From Alphaproteobacteria bacterium (GTDB lineage: Bacteria > Pseudomonadota > Alphaproteobacteria > Micavibrionales > Micavibrionaceae): 42,384 bases of DNA. Location of the stretch: the NCBI GenBank assembly GCA_030426925.1, contig JAUHXT010000008.1, positions 1-42,384 of the forward strand. Reading direction: 5' to 3'. Positions 6,730 through 25,217 of this stretch are shown piece by piece; positions within the stretch are counted from its first letter, which is position 1; the number at the start of each line of letters is the position of its first letter. Under the pieces are notes generated by a model. That model was not told the origin of the DNA. It ran no database searches and saw only the letters and a program-made list of their open reading frames with translations. A program made the position numbers and the translations under genes.

Positions 6730-6924
6730 ATGAACCAGCTTGTTGATCCGAAATTGTTAGAAATACTGGTCTGCCCGTTGACCAAGGTTCCGCTGCGCTA
6801 TGACGGGGAAAAACAGGAACTGCTGTCCGATGCGGCTGCACTGGCGTACCCGGTGCGCGACGGCATCCCGATCATGTTGATCGACGAAGCTCGCAAAATG
6901 GACGATAGCGAAATAAAGAAATAA
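6730..6924 (+). CDS. Trm112 family protein
   Basis: Trm112/YcaR-like small protein, 64 residues from ATG 6730. In eukaryotes and some bacteria Trm112 is a cofactor that stabilises methyltransferases acting on tRNA, rRNA or release factors. The family pattern is clear: [20 protein letters not shown] near the N-terminus and the C-terminal [17 protein letters not shown]. The first metal site has only one Cys (CPLT rather than CPxC), so zinc binding is probably lost, as in many alphaproteobacterial members. A TTG two codons upstream is an alternative start, but the family begins close to the ATG. The gene ends one base before the end of a convergent gene, so the 3' ends abut. Confidence 0.9.
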
Positions 6925-20365: not shown

Positions 20366-22084
20366 ATGGAACAAGACAACACCCCGGCCGGCACACAAAA
20401 TTTTCCTTGGATAAAATCATATCCCGACGGGATGCGCTGGGACGCGCCGGTACGAAGCTACGCCGCGTTCGACATGCTGGCCCGCACGGCAGAAAAATAT
20501 GGTAACCGCCCTGCCGTCGATTTCCTGGGCACAAAATACACCTGGTCCGACATTCATACGCAGGCATTAAAGCTGGCCAAGGGTTTGCAGGAGCAGGGCA
20601 TCGGCAAGGGCACGAAAGTCGGCCTGTTCATGCCGAACTGCCCGTATTTCCTGATTGCCTTTTACGCGCTGATGAAAATCGGCGTGACGGCGGTTAATTA
20701 TAATCCGCTCTATGCCGAAGAAGGCCTGGCCAAGCAGATCGAGGACAGCGAAACCGATGTCATGGTCACGGTCGACCTGGAACTCACCCATTCCAAAATG
20801 GTGAAAATGTTGAGCTCTACGCGGCTGTCCAAGCTCGTGATCTGCTCCTTTGTTGATATATTACCGTTTCCAAAAAACCTGCTGTTCAAATATCTGAAGG
20901 GCAGGGAACTCGCGGCCATCCCCAACGACAAACGCCACTTGCTGTACGCGGACTTGACCGCCAATGACGGCAACCCCGACCCCGTCAGCATCGATATATA
21001 TGAAGATATCGCCGTGCTGCAATATACCGGCGGCACAACGGGCGAACCGAAGGGCGCGATGCTGACCCACGCCAATATCACATCGAATACGGAACAGGCG
21101 GGCATCCTTTTGCACATGACGCGCAAGGGCGAGGACAAGATGGTGGGCATTTTGCCGTTCTTCCACGTCTTCGCCATGACGGCCGTGATGAATATCAGCG
21201 TCCTCAAAGGATGGGAAATCATCATGCTGCCGCGCTTTGACCTCGACCAGACGTTAAAGCTCGTCCATAAGCACCGCCCGCAAATCATGCCCGCTGTGCC
21301 CGCGATTTTTAACGCCATCAATAACCACAAGAAACTGGGGCATTTCGATTTAACGTCACTGGAATACTGCATTTCCGGCGGCGCGCCGCTGCCCGGCAAT
21401 GTGAAGGAAAAATTCGAAGACAAGACCGGCGCAAAGATTTTTGAAGGATACGGCCTGACCGAAGCCTCGCCGATTTTATCGTGCAGCGTCCCCGGCGCGG
21501 AAAACAAGCCCGGAACCATCGGCCCGCCATTCCCGCAAACGATTATCCAGATTGTCGACCCCGACGATAAAAAAACCTTGAAAGGCCCGGGGGAGCGGGG
21601 GGAGCTGTGCGCTATCGGACCGCAGGTGATGAAGGGATACTGGAACCGGCCCGACGCCACCGCGCAGACGTTACGCAAAACAGAAGACGGGCAGGCCCGC
21701 CTGCACACCGGCGACATCGCGATTATGGACGAAGACGGGTTCTTCTTCATCGTTGATCGCATCAAGGACTTGATCATCACCAACGGATACAACGTGTACC
21801 CGCGCAATGTCGAAGAAGCGATATACAAACATCCGTCGGTGGAAGAATGCATCGTCGCCGGACTGCCCGATACCAACCGCGGGGAAATCGTGAAAGCGTG
21901 GATCAAGCGCAAGGACGGGCGGGAATTAACGGTCGAAGATTTAAAGACATTTCTGGAAGACAAATTATCGCCGATGGAAATTCCCAAACGCGTGGAATTC
22001 CGCGAAGACCCCCTGCCCAAAACCCTGATCGGGAAATTATCACGCAAGGATATCGTCGAAGAAGAACTGGCGAAAAAATCGTGA
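20366..22084 (+). CDS. fadD: Long-chain fatty-acid--CoA ligase
   Basis: AMP-forming acyl-CoA synthetase: activates long-chain fatty acids to acyl-CoA for beta-oxidation or lipid synthesis; 572 residues. The P-loop-like signature is YTGGTTGEPKG (220-230), the adenylate motif FEGYGLTEASP lies near 364, and HTGDIAIMDEDGFFFIVDRIKDLI (about 445-468) carries the conserved Asp and Arg. The C-terminal swinging domain ends PLPKTLIGKLSRKDI with the catalytic Lys. The N-terminal WIKSYPDGMRWD resembles the FadD group. The ribosome-binding site before ATG 20366 is weak. It is divergent from the cold-shock gene across a 238-base region in which I see no clear promoter. A long antisense ORF over this gene is a shadow. 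Confidence 0.92.
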   Translation: MEQDNTPAGTQNFPWIKSYPDGMRWDAPVRSYAAFDMLARTAEKYGNRPAVDFLGTKYTWSDIHTQALKLAKGLQEQGIGKGTKVGLFMPNCPYFLIAFYALMKIGVTAVNYNPLYAEEGLAKQIEDSETDVMVTVDLELTHSKMVKMLSSTRLSKLVICSFVDILPFPKNLLFKYLKGRELAAIPNDKRHLLYADLTANDGNPDPVSIDIYEDIAVLQYTGGTTGEPKGAMLTHANITSNTEQAGILLHMTRKGEDKMVGILPFFHVFAMTAVMNISVLKGWEIIMLPRFDLDQTLKLVHKHRPQIMPAVPAIFNAINNHKKLGHFDLTSLEYCISGGAPLPGNVKEKFEDKTGAKIFEGYGLTEASPILSCSVPGAENKPGTIGPPFPQTIIQIVDPDDKKTLKGPGERGELCAIGPQVMKGYWNRPDATAQTLRKTEDGQARLHTGDIAIMDEDGFFFIVDRIKDLIITNGYNVYPRNVEEAIYKHPSVEECIVAGLPDTNRGEIVKAWIKRKDGRELTVEDLKTFLEDKLSPMEIPKRVEFREDPLPKTLIGKLSRKDIVEEELAKKS

Positions 22085-22092
22085 CACCACAC

Positions 22093-22169
22093 GTCATTGC
22101 GAGCCAAAGGCGAAGCAATCCACACGAAACTGGATTGCCGCGTCGGCCCTTCGGCCTCCTCGCAATGAC
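22093..22169. repeat. Palindromic intergenic repeat, copy A
   Basis: The outer arms GTCATTGCGAG (22093-22103) and CTCGCAATGAC (22159-22169) are perfect, and the inner arms GCAATCCA (22115-22122) and TGGATTGC (22131-22138) are perfect too. The same architecture recurs, inverted, at 32701-32773. It lies nine bases after the acyl-CoA ligase stop and could also act as a transcript-end hairpin. Confidence 0.85.
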
Positions 22170-22293
22170 AGTATTCAGTTCGTTGCAAAACGGGTGTGTT
22201 TTTGACGCTCCGGCCATTGATAATAAACGATTTTCTCTCAGTTCGTTTTCTGGCCTCTTCCGGCCACACAGCCTTTTTTCGATACAAAAACAT

Positions 22294-22311
22294 ATAGGAA
22301 TTATATCCTAT
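22294..22311. repeat. Short dyad
   Basis: ATAGGA (22294-22299) and TCCTAT (22306-22311) flank six A/T bases, in the gap between repeat copy A and the DUF559 unit. The rest of 22170-22329 shows nothing recognisable. Confidence 0.3.
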
Positions 22312-22329
22312 TAATAGTGCTTTTGTAAA

Positions 22330-22379
22330 CCTCTCCCTTCAGGGAGAGGTCGAAATCATGGTATGATTTCGGGTGAGGG
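22330..22379 (+). repeat. REP-like palindrome C1, left border of the DUF559 unit
   Basis: Two consecutive perfect hairpins: CCTCTCCCT/AGGGAGAGG (22330-22338, 22341-22349) and CGAAATCAT/ATGATTTCG (22351-22359, 22363-22371), then GGTGAGGG (22372-22379). The tail runs into the start region of the DUF559 ORF. Inverted and direct copies lie at 22710-22760 and 22783-22830. Confidence 0.85.
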
Positions 22380-22384
22380 CCGCA

Positions 22385-22729
22385 ATGTCGATAACACAAA
22401 AAGCAAGACAGCTACGCGCAGACCAGACGCAAGCAGAGAAAAAACTCTGGCTGCATTTGCGCAATCGTCAAATGGCAGGATGCAAATTTTATCGCCAGTT
22501 CCCTGTCCCGCCCTATACGGTTGATTTTTGCTGCCGGACCGCTGATTTGATTATTGAGGTAGACGGCGGCCAGCACGCAGACAGTAAGGCGGATATCATA
22601 CGGACAAAATTTCTGGAAGACAAAGGCTATACGGTTTTGCGCTTCTGGAACAATCAGGTGATGGAAGAAACGCAAAGCGTATTGCAGGAAATTCACAATA
22701 CGCTGCTGTCCCTCACCCGCTCGGATTGA
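22385..22729 (+). CDS. DUF559 endonuclease-like protein
   Basis: Small predicted nuclease, 114 residues from ATG 22385, of the DUF559 family, which shares the Vsr-like PD-(D/E)XK fold. The typical N-terminus is ARQLRADQTQAEKKLWLHLRNRQ (7-29). The core has YTVDFCC (44-50) and LIIEVDGGQH (55-64), offering Asp47, Glu58, Asp60, Gln63 and His64 as active-site candidates. GYTVLRFWNNQV (81-92) is also characteristic. A GTG at 22373, inside the left repeat, is an alternative start, and the last codons (SLTRSD) and the stop lie in the right repeat. No strong ribosome-binding site is visible. The gene sits between inverted copies of one palindromic repeat. The cellular role is unknown; a link to repeat movement is inference. 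Confidence 0.85.
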   Translation: MSITQKARQLRADQTQAEKKLWLHLRNRQMAGCKFYRQFPVPPYTVDFCCRTADLIIEVDGGQHADSKADIIRTKFLEDKGYTVLRFWNNQVMEETQSVLQEIHNTLLSLTRSD

Positions 22730-22760
22730 CATCCTCGCGACCTCTCCCTAAAGGGAGAGG
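22710..22760 (-). repeat. REP-like palindrome C2, inverted, right border of the DUF559 unit
   Basis: CCCTCACC (22710-22717) is the complement of the GGTGAGGG tail of C1, and CCTCTCCCT/AGGGAGAGG (22741-22749, 22752-22760) is the same hairpin. So C2 is an inverted copy of C1. The stop codon of the DUF559 gene (22727-22729) is inside it. Confidence 0.85.
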
Positions 22761-22782
22761 TTGAATACCGCACCTGACAATA

Positions 22783-22830
22783 CCTCTCCCTTTAGGGAGA
22801 GGTCGGCGAATGCAATGAGCCGGGTGAGGG
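22783..22830 (+). repeat. REP-like palindrome C3, solo copy
   Basis: CCTCTCCCT/AGGGAGAGG (22783-22791, 22794-22802) and terminal GGTGAGGG (22823-22830), in the same orientation as C1, without a gene attached. It ends five bases before the pheT stop codon. Confidence 0.85.
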
Positions 22831-22835
22831 AAGAA

Positions 22836-25217
22836 CTACCCCCTCAACACCCCGCCCGTCTTGCTGGTCACGGCGGCGATGATTTTCTGGGACAGGCCGT
22901 CAATTTCGCTATCCGTCATCGTCTGCTCTTTTGGTTGCATGATGACGTTAATGGCCACGGACTTCTTGCCCTCATCCACGCCCTTGCCCTGGTAAACGTC
23001 GAACACGTCGACGTCGGTAATCAGGTCTTTGTCGGCGCCCTTCGCCGCGCGGATGATGTTGTCTGCTTCCACGTTTTCATCGACGATAAAGGCGAAGTCG
23101 CGTTCCACCGGCTGGAAGGCCGAGAGTTTTAACAGCGGCTTGGCAGACCCTTTTTTCTTGGCGTCCGGTATCGCTTCAAGGAACACTTCAAACCCGCACA
23201 CCGGGCCTTTGATGTCCATGTCTTCCAGCACCGCCGGGTGCAAATCACCGAATTGCGCCAGCACGAATTTGCCAAGGCGCAGCGTACCGGACCGTCCCGG
23301 GTGATAATAATCCGGCGCATCGCGGGACACCTGGAGGTTCGCAGCCGGAGCGCCGGCTGCTTCCAGCGCGGCAATCGCATCCGCCTTCACATCCATCAAA
23401 TCAATATCGCGGCTGGCGTCCGCGCCTGACCAGTGCTTGGACGATACGCTGCCGTGACGGATACCCGCGGCCACAATCTGCTGCCCGTCTGCTTTTACGG
23501 ATTGGAACGCGGGGCCGACTTCAAACAGCGCCGCATTCGGAGTGCCACGGTCGGCATTCTTGCCCGCCGCCTGTATCAGGTTGGGCAGGATCGACGGGCG
23601 CATCTGGTCCAGCTCCGAACTGATCGGGTTGGACAGGGTAAGGGAATTATCGTTGGAACCGAAAGATCCGGCGAGTTCCTTTGACATGAACGACCATGTG
23701 ACACATTCATTGAGGCCCCGCGCAGCCAGCGCCGTGCGGGCAAGGCGCGTGCGCATCTGCGTTTTTGTCTCTGCCGATGCCGTGACCGCCCCTTCGGAGC
23801 GCACAGACACGGGCGCGATATTGTCAAAGCCGTAAATCCGCACGACTTCTTCTACCAGGTCGGCCTTGCCTTCTACATCGACGCGCCATGACGGCACGCT
23901 CGCCGTATTGCCCTTGAAGGTAAAGCCCAGCGTTTCCAGAATTTGTTTTTGCTTGCCCGCATCAATCGACACGCCCGCCAGCTTTTCGGTATAGGCGGGG
24001 TCGAAATCAATCGTGCGCGTGGCGTCCGGTTTCTTTCCGGCAATCAGGATTTCGGACGCTTCACCGCCGCACAGCTCCAGAACCATTTTCGTGGCAAGCT
24101 CCATCCCGACCTGCGTGAAGTCCGGGTCGACCCCGCGTTCAAAACGGTAACGTGCATCGGAAATAATACCGTGGTCGCGGCCTGTGCGCGCGGTTGACAT
24201 AGGGTCGAAATACGCGGCTTCGATAAACACGTTGACGGTGTCCTCTTCACTGCCCGTGCTTGTTCCGCCGACAATCCCGCCAAGACCGATCACGCCGCTG
24301 TCATCACAAATCGCGGTTTCCCCGCCGGCCAGCGTGTAGGACTTGTCGTTCAGCGCATCGAGCGTCTCTCCCGCTTCGGCCAGCCGCACATGGATATTGC
24401 CGGACAGCTTGTCGGCATCGTAAACGTGCAGCGGACGGCCATAGGCCATGGAGAAAAAGTTCGTGATATCCACCAGCGCGGAAATCGGGCGCAGGCCGAC
24501 GGCCTTTAATTGCTTTTGCAGCCAGTCCGGTGACGGGCCGTTCTTCACGCCGCGTACCAGCCGCCCGACAAAATGCGGGCAGGTATCGGGTGTTTGAAGG
24601 TCAACGTCAATAGGACAGTCGCCCATCCCTTTGACGGGTGTGGTATCAATCGGCTTGAGTGTACCAAGCCCGGCAGCGGCAAGGTCGCGCGCAATCCCGT
24701 ATACGCCCGTACAATCGGAACGGTCGGGCGTGAGGCCAATATCGATGACCGGATCGTCCATGCCATAAATTTGTGTGAACGGTGTGCCGACCGGCGTATC
24801 CTCCGGCAAATCGATAATGCCCTCATGGTCGTCGGACAATCCCATCTCGCGTTCGGACACCAGCATCCCGTTGGATTCCTGCCCGCGGATATTCCCCTTT
24901 TTCAGCCATAGGTCCGTGCCCGGCACGTAAGACCCGACAGGGGCGAAAATGCCCTTCATCCCCGTGCGCGCATTGGGCGCGCCGCAGACAACCTGTAACA
25001 CTTCCTCACCGGTATTGACCTGGCACACGCGCAGCTTGTCGGCATCCGGATGCTTTTCAGCGGATTCCACGTAAGCGACTTTGAACGGCGCGAACTTCTC
25101 GCCCGGGTCTTCCACGCCCTCAAGTTCCAACCCGATGGCGGTCAGCGTGTCTGTAATTGTTGTCAGGTCGGCATCTGTATCCAGATACTCTTTTAACCAG
25201 CTTAAAGTGAATTTCAT
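22836..25217 (-). CDS. pheT: Phenylalanyl-tRNA synthetase beta subunit
   Basis: Beta chain of the alpha2-beta2 PheRS, which charges tRNA-Phe; 793 residues, normal length. MKFTLSWLKEYLDTDADLT is the standard N-terminus. The EMAP-like tRNA-binding OB fold (about 40-150) has KLRVCQVNTGEEVLQVVCGAPNAR. The B3/B4 editing domain, B5 domain, catalytic-like core (about 480-680) and the C-terminal ferredoxin-like anticodon domain with VERDFAFIVDENV follow. The start is ATG 25217, two bases after the stop of the GNAT gene, with GGAG in that overlap, so translation is coupled to it. pheS lies about 1.1 kb upstream, separated by two genes. The 3' end abuts a solo REP-like repeat. Confidence 0.97.
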   Translation of the reverse strand: MKFTLSWLKEYLDTDADLTTITDTLTAIGLELEGVEDPGEKFAPFKVAYVESAEKHPDADKLRVCQVNTGEEVLQVVCGAPNARTGMKGIFAPVGSYVPGTDLWLKKGNIRGQESNGMLVSEREMGLSDDHEGIIDLPEDTPVGTPFTQIYGMDDPVIDIGLTPDRSDCTGVYGIARDLAAAGLGTLKPIDTTPVKGMGDCPIDVDLQTPDTCPHFVGRLVRGVKNGPSPDWLQKQLKAVGLRPISALVDITNFFSMAYGRPLHVYDADKLSGNIHVRLAEAGETLDALNDKSYTLAGGETAICDDSGVIGLGGIVGGTSTGSEEDTVNVFIEAAYFDPMSTARTGRDHGIISDARYRFERGVDPDFTQVGMELATKMVLELCGGEASEILIAGKKPDATRTIDFDPAYTEKLAGVSIDAGKQKQILETLGFTFKGNTASVPSWRVDVEGKADLVEEVVRIYGFDNIAPVSVRSEGAVTASAETKTQMRTRLARTALAARGLNECVTWSFMSKELAGSFGSNDNSLTLSNPISSELDQMRPSILPNLIQAAGKNADRGTPNAALFEVGPAFQSVKADGQQIVAAGIRHGSVSSKHWSGADASRDIDLMDVKADAIAALEAAGAPAANLQVSRDAPDYYHPGRSGTLRLGKFVLAQFGDLHPAVLEDMDIKGPVCGFEVFLEAIPDAKKKGSAKPLLKLSAFQPVERDFAFIVDENVEADNIIRAAKGADKDLITDVDVFDVYQGKGVDEGKKSVAINVIMQPKEQTMTDSEIDGLSQKIIAAVTSKTGGVLRG

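Follow-up and report, generated by a model that had tools for sequence, protein, structure and literature searches.

The window, by which we mean the whole 42,384-nt stretch of DNA analyzed, carries between positions 22330 and 22830 three copies of one repeat type, C1 (22330-22379, plus strand), C2 (22710-22760, minus) and C3 (22783..22830, plus), within a 751-nt stretch (22085..22835) between the stop codons of two convergent genes. The left flanking gene (20366..22084, plus), an open reading frame (ORF) conserved as a neighbor in relatives, we take from its sequence to be AMP-dependent/acyl-CoA ligase-like, and the right one (22836..25217, minus), an ORF also compared among relatives, is presumably pheT-like. 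Each copy consists of a 20-nt hairpin, CCTCTCCCT nn AGGGAGAGG, a linker of 20-23 nt and then GGTGAGGG, so that a pyrimidine/purine hairpin is followed downstream by a third strand mirroring its purine arm. In C1 the pyrimidine arm, loop and purine arm occupy 22330..22349 (plus), the gene-facing third strand GGTGAGGG occupies 22372..22379 (plus), and the linker between them (22350..22371, plus) is a second small hairpin, TCGAAATCAT GG TATGATTTCG (cgaaatcat-ggt-atgatttcg). C2 has its hairpin at 22741..22760, its linker at 22718..22740 and its third strand, which reads CCCTCACC on the plus strand, at 22710..22717, all on the minus strand. C1 and C2 are mutually inverted, and the GGTGAGGG of both points inwards at a gene for a DUF559 nuclease (22385..22729, plus, with its ATG at 22385; 114 aa and a stop codon) of EDxHD type and Vsr-like fold, the last codons of which are overlapped by the third strand of C2. 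C3 (hairpin 22783-22802, linker 22803-22822, third strand 22823-22830) forms with C2 an outward composite at 22710-22830, built as third strand-hairpin-22 nt-hairpin-third strand, and this layout was found again on contigs C29 and C88 of the same genome.

When the pattern positions were re-checked, the coordinates originally predicted for the three copies proved correct, and the sequence confirms that C1 and C2 are inverted copies with a common hairpin and border and that the gene between them encodes a DUF559 protein. Two descriptions were refined: the border is present in the copies and is, more exactly, the third strand mirroring the purine arm, and C3, which had been called a solo copy, does lie outside C1-C2 but is not simply solo, given the composite that it forms with C2. 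We also note a second palindromic repeat, CGTCATTGCGAGCC ... CTCGCAATGACA, just left of the unit at 22093-22172 of the window, which begins with CGTC and resembles the CGTC-tagged REPs described, without a dedicated transposase, in the accessible part of PMC3733652.

The window protein matches PF04480 with 136.2 bits against a curated cut-off of 20.6 (E 5.1e-40); PF03852 (Vsr) is not among its Pfam matches at E up to 1 and has no match in the genome from which the window comes. The closest structure to its predicted model (mean pLDDT 88.1) is NGO0050 of Neisseria gonorrhoeae (3hrl, E 8e-9), followed by 3r3p, the catalytic domain of I-Bth0305I, an EDxHD homing endonuclease (E 1.1e-4, TM-score by target 0.78), and Vsr is a weak structural match (E 0.16 and 0.8). 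The residues E58, D60, H64 and D70 are invariant across 14 proteins aligned without a motif filter, and we read them as the probable E-x-D ... H ... D residues of the EDxHD family name. A larger set retained 134 of 149 sequences after a motif filter asking for D/E, E/V and D/E-G positions, and the near-100% conservation at these positions in it is partly circular because the filter demanded them. The extended DNA-binding region of EDxHD homing endonucleases is absent from the window protein, whose 114 aa form one domain. In the available portions of earlier papers, a DUF559 gene had already been placed in the EDxHD family (PMC9403480) and YcjD related to Vsr (PMC1189080).

The genome of the window (2.14 Mb) contains a single DUF559 match; CCTCTCCCTNNNGGGAGAGG and the full stem-linker-border element each occur 9 times in it, and reversed-pattern controls returned 0 for both patterns. 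Such controls also gave 0 in the relatives and in the genus of genome G309, which rules out a chance origin of the repeats. BoxC/PIT/TM repeats have been known since the 1990s. They were published as an intrastrand-triplex repeat (Holder et al. 2015, PMC4666352), and the window copies show the same pyrimidine arm, purine arm and mirroring third strand, as do all 9 copies found genome-wide. According to the part of that paper available to us, BoxC/PIT/TM repeats occur in hundreds of genomes and are linked to genome instability, without an enzyme explaining their spread and with no mobility gene found beside them by the authors; triplex formation of the E. coli sequence was reported in vitro, and PIT elements were without promoter or terminator activity in earlier work. 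The terms ycjD, endonuclease and Vsr do not occur in its main text, nor DUF559 in the paper, as accessible, and no link between the repeat and DUF559 was found among the matches listed from the open-access full texts searched. This corrects the original prediction of a possibly undescribed unit in so far as the repeat itself had already been described.

Stems vary by lineage (GGGAGAGGG, GGGGGAAGG, GGGGGAGAT, AAAGAGGGG, GGGAGAAGG and others), and the third strand follows its own stem as a mirror, with T allowed opposite A; it is structure rather than sequence that is conserved in the repeat. We examined this with a mirror test that required no prior match and that used the 187 of 298 gene sides with a perfect hairpin, in which the mirror score of the own arm was 0.934 against 0.843 for 500 permutations (sd 0.005, maximum 0.857). 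The arm in direct sense scored 0.879 versus 0.838 permuted, above the permutations and below the mirror, and nearly symmetric stems therefore supply part of the signal, with the mirror clearly better. Long linkers are themselves hairpins: of 45 distinct linkers, 69% have a stem of at least 5, against 9% of shuffled ones. In the genus of G309, 32 of 33 copies, drawn from 20 loci, are complementary at the two open positions of the linker. Within a unit, the left and right ends have 8 or more arm letters in common in 61 of 81 cases, compared with 35% (maximum 48%) after shuffling. Stem type correlates weakly with DUF559 sequence (r 0.105, p 0.016), and we rejected coevolution of the two as weak on this value.

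A finder for a stem with a mirror third strand was run on 250 nt at each side of 149 DUF559 genes, comprising 43 from the relatives and the named-genome collection (set A) and 106 from 398 genomes of the phylum (set B, the best-scoring 106 of a longer list and not a random draw), with the contig-edge genes L027 (set A) and G242:C16 (set B) left out. Inward elements, their third strands facing the gene, were present on both sides of 81 of the 149 genes and on one side of 45, at a median distance of 27 nt from the matched DUF559 domain; no element was detected at 23 by this finder, which misses some variants, for example the Pseudanabaena unit. Of 78 other ORFs in these loci, none had elements on both sides and 1 had an element on one side, and sliding windows in the set B loci gave 10 of 706 on the left and 2 of 706 on both sides. 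Thirty further loci were chosen for the repeat alone: DUF559 lay within 1.5 kb in 5 of them, all 3 inward pairs with a gene-sized interior held DUF559 (the window's own locus being one in each count), and a close inverted pair, inward or outward, was present in 22.

Vsr genes served as another control, and none of 28 (30 loci, 2 of them short and dropped) had an element on either side, also within 450 nt; together with the absence of PF03852 from the protein and its genome, this led us to reject membership of the window protein in Vsr. It also bears on the possibility that DUF559 is a host Vsr-like repair nuclease and the adjacent repeats are hitch-hikers or hot spots rather than its substrate. 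The Vsr-like fold relatives (PMC1189080, as far as available) are in keeping with such a role, as is Caulobacter VsrA, a DUF559 protein which, in the accessible text of PMC12907096, is induced in the SOS-linked DNA-damage response and is harmful in cells lacking a methylase, with mismatch repair proposed as its function. A repair function nonetheless appears decidedly unlikely to us, given that true Vsr genes are without the element, that the inverted ends match each other, and that DUF559 is missing from 120 of 193 relatives and sits at varying places.

The pairing of DUF559 with the repeats was seen here in Alpha-, Beta- and Gammaproteobacteria, Planctomycetota and one cyanobacterium. Named carriers with elements on both sides by the finder were 4 Pseudoxanthomonas and 1 Rhizobium, and among 9 Planctomycetota DUF559 genes the finder placed elements on both sides of 1, on one side of 3 and at none of 5. 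Reading by eye added elements beside DUF559 on an Azospirillum plasmid and, on both sides and in the same orientation, in Neisseria gonorrhoeae, as well as a unit with a C6/G6 stem in the cyanobacterium Pseudanabaena. Plasmids and phages are not usual carriers: relatives of the window protein occurred in 45 of 72,556 plasmid records, some of which are chromosome-sized, and in 5 of 50,697 phage records, and a plasmid search with a planctomycete DUF559 returned 47 records.

Enteric units occupy the sites fabI-sapF (ycjD), yggN-hemW (G464, G531) and, in G351, one upstream of cysP. At fabI-sapF, the E. coli DUF559 gene ycjD is followed by such an element some 170 nt past its 3' end, and its region is covered in 3,362 of 5,375 matching E. 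coli genomes (5,426 in the collection); a large minority of E. coli genomes lack ycjD. In three strains without ycjD an efflux gene pair stands next to sapF, and therefore there is no simple empty site at fabI-sapF, which we rejected as a clean example. A length difference between ucpA and cysP among E. coli was likewise rejected, not being a TM element. On the 5' side of DUF559, the enteric units L079, L117, L118 and L124 have a different hairpin instead of a TM element, one example being the palindrome upstream of ycjD (L079, about 6760-6802). Upstream of cysP in G351, several tandem ~80-nt TM units adjoin the DUF559 gene (L118, about 745-1490).

Co-occurrence was scored in the 398 genomes from the phylum, taking E <= 1e-10 as a strong DUF559 hit and an exact pattern for the main repeat type: the repeat was found in 80 of 110 genomes with a strong hit versus 17 of 288 without (odds ratio 42.5), and stratification by family left an odds ratio of 18.1 (p 1.7e-13, 13 informative families). 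Repeats in genomes without DUF559, which the original prediction had named as an observation against it, do occur in a minority, namely in those 17 genomes, with 413 of 2,178 copies. Among them are G326 with 127 copies, G347 with 90 and G485 with 86, G326 and G347 being incomplete genomes. The main repeat type is absent from 30 of the 110 DUF559 genomes, some of which have other stems. Among 193 nearer relatives, counted by eye, the palindrome occurred in 27, and 23 of these have DUF559.

The same genomes allow us to weigh whether a RAYT or IS200/IS605 (HUH) transposase moves the repeats as it would ordinary REPs, with DUF559 as a passenger. Their REP-like size, inverted pairs and intergenic place fit that description, but Y1/HUH transposases show no association with the repeat (48 of 212 genomes with one, 49 of 186 without; p 0.41), the DUF559 effect persists in both Y1/HUH strata (odds ratios 58.5 and 35.1), a profile search found no PF01797 match in the genome of the window, and no GTAG abuts the foot of the window hairpins as read by eye. 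We accordingly rejected membership in RAYT/REP systems and give almost no credence to a HUH-driven origin.

Gain and loss at fixed sites could be followed around unit L189 of G309, which lies between two convergent genes. Of 81 genomes of the genus searched, 80 matched, and among the 30 best-matching loci of these 80, 27 hold both flanks. The full unit is present in 7 of them (641-663 nt), an internally deleted unit in 2 (525 and 526 nt), a gene-less inward pair in 7 (211-344 nt, two with further sequence inside), a single hairpin in 3 (52-58 nt) and an outward composite of other stem types in 6 (142-192 nt), and the site is empty in 2 (4 nt). These states are intermingled among genomes whose left flanks are about 93-96% identical. 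The gene-less pairs have the same stem, linker and third strand as the gene-bearing unit, L243 also some 25 further nt. Gene-less copies are plentiful as well: an element matching L189 is present in 38 of 41 genomes of the genus, with as many as 145 copies in one genome and 0 for the control pattern.

For the site occupied in the window, 42 of 44 genomes gave a pheT match, and 30 loci were examined, one of them the window's own. DUF559 and the elements are absent from the other 29 over the stretch about 1.5 kb beyond the match, and a DUF559 gene at the same place without the repeats, the other observation named as adverse in the original prediction, was seen in 0 of 29 relatives. Twelve of the 29 have the ligase homologue beside pheT: the two genes overlap by 4 nt in 3 genomes, are 10 nt apart in 2 and are separated by other sequence of 353-1,313 nt in 7, compared with 751 nt in the window; the empty-site comparison proposed at the outset thus finds empty versions at this very site. 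No target-site duplication is definable at either the L189 or the window site, where the empty form consists of stop codons that overlap or of a short gap. We note that the empty form at two unrelated sites is a pair of convergent genes with stop codons overlapping in CTAA or CTAG (L252, L253; L313, L315, L316).

A place between convergent genes at the studied sites, together with the proximity of the hairpins to the gene, would also suit terminators or expression controls kept beside DUF559 for its regulation. We consider this very improbable: gene-less copies reach the numbers given above in the genus of G309, and PIT elements were without promoter or terminator activity in the accessible text of PMC4666352.

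We favor, as the likelier account though with real reservations, the reading that the segment represents a mobile unit of wide distribution, REP-RAYT-like and built on an EDxHD-type DUF559 nuclease, and the comparative tests support the original proposal of a DUF559 gene carried between inverted palindromes in parallel to REP-RAYT with another enzyme. The comparisons show the architecture and its specificity to DUF559, the co-occurrence, the covariation of stem with third strand and within linkers, the gene-less derivatives and the presence or absence of the unit at fixed sites; that DUF559 binds, cuts and moves the element is inferred. The same pairing in distant bacteria suggests that DUF559 is probably the missing partner that spreads this common bacterial repeat family. 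We hypothesize that the mobile unit is the DUF559 gene bounded by two inverted intrastrand-triplex elements, the ends being recognized by the nuclease. When single-stranded, during replication or repair, the hairpin and mirror third strand would fold into a compact structure, and the nuclease would bind the element and cut DNA at or beside it. Host repair, or a strand-transfer route, might then copy or move the segment to another intergenic site, or remove it. To our knowledge, enzymes of the DUF559-type fold hydrolyze DNA and join nothing, which makes repair indispensable to the model. Pairs without a gene and solo copies would be non-autonomous derivatives that depend on the nuclease in trans, much as REPs depend on RAYTs, and recombination between the two near-palindromic ends could remove the interior and leave a single hairpin, which fits the single hairpins observed.

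Several observations weigh against the mobile-unit reading: no target-site duplication is definable at two sites, 17 of the 288 genomes without a strong DUF559 hit keep repeats, 23 of the 149 DUF559 genes are without a detected element, the stem-DUF559 correlation is weak, the direct arm orientation also scores above permutations, joining must come from the host, and the Caulobacter DUF559 protein has been interpreted as a mismatch-repair enzyme (PMC12907096, as far as accessible). It is also conceivable, if rather unlikely, that the repeats spread otherwise and that a selfish homing-type DUF559 gene cuts and inserts into existing repeats, so that it always ends up between two of them. The nearness of the modeled fold to an EDxHD homing endonuclease, the commonness of repeats without a gene, and the fact that in two-sided units the third strands always face the gene, which follows from the finder's definition, all agree with such colonization, yet the co-occurrence of repeat and gene across genomes would need another explanation, and DUF559 is the one enzyme gene found with the repeats, Y1 transposases, the other family tested, not tracking them.

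Should the mobile-unit reading hold generally, there may exist a bacterial mobile-element class in which a stand-alone EDxHD-type DUF559 nuclease recognizes a three-strand fold at both ends, propagates both itself and gene-less copies numbering up to hundreds, and is the source of BoxC/PIT/TM repeats, a proposal that we make tentatively and regard as slightly more doubtful than an even bet. A class of this kind, combining DUF559 with triplex ends, was not found among the matches listed from the open-access full text searched. The link between BoxC/PIT/TM and DUF559 supplies a candidate enzyme for repeat spread, puts the question of that spread directly within reach of testing in E. coli K-12 through ycjD, and offers a role for a family still of "unknown function" in Pfam. 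If true, it would constitute a second enzymatic route, beside HUH/RAYT, by which bacteria gain palindromic repeats, and if the ends are recognized as a triplex fold, a DNA structure known mainly in vitro would gain a biological role.

Compared with known systems, as far as these are described in the accessible parts of the papers cited, the unit shares with Vsr and Caulobacter VsrA (PMC1189080, PMC12907096) a nuclease superfamily, VsrA being itself a DUF559 protein, and differs in that the window protein is without PF03852 and Vsr genes are without elements. The EDxHD homing endonucleases represented by I-Bth0305I (PMC3943268, PMC9403480) offer the nearest experimentally studied fold after 3hrl and a nuclease able to drive the spread of its own gene, but the window protein is one short domain of 114 aa with no intron or intein seen, and inverted triplex ends are not described for that family in the text available. 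With BoxC/PIT/TM_ECO (PMC4666352) the unit has in common a stem with a mirror third strand, intergenic location, inverted pairs, many copies and variation between strains; no gene had been tied to that repeat earlier, whereas here the elements bound DUF559 genes as inverted ends and have many stem types and hairpin linkers. The REPtrons of REP/RAYT (TnpAREP) systems (PMC8266576, PMC3733652) likewise place an enzyme gene beside inverted palindromes, one gene with many gene-less copies, and at the window too a gene is flanked by inverted repeats that also occur alone; here, however, the enzyme is DUF559 rather than HUH, GTAG is lacking and the repeat has a third strand. Both the repeat and the protein family were known before, and DUF559 and the three-strand fold constitute a different enzyme and a different repeat fold from those of REP/RAYT; the unit has a fair chance of deserving a class of its own.
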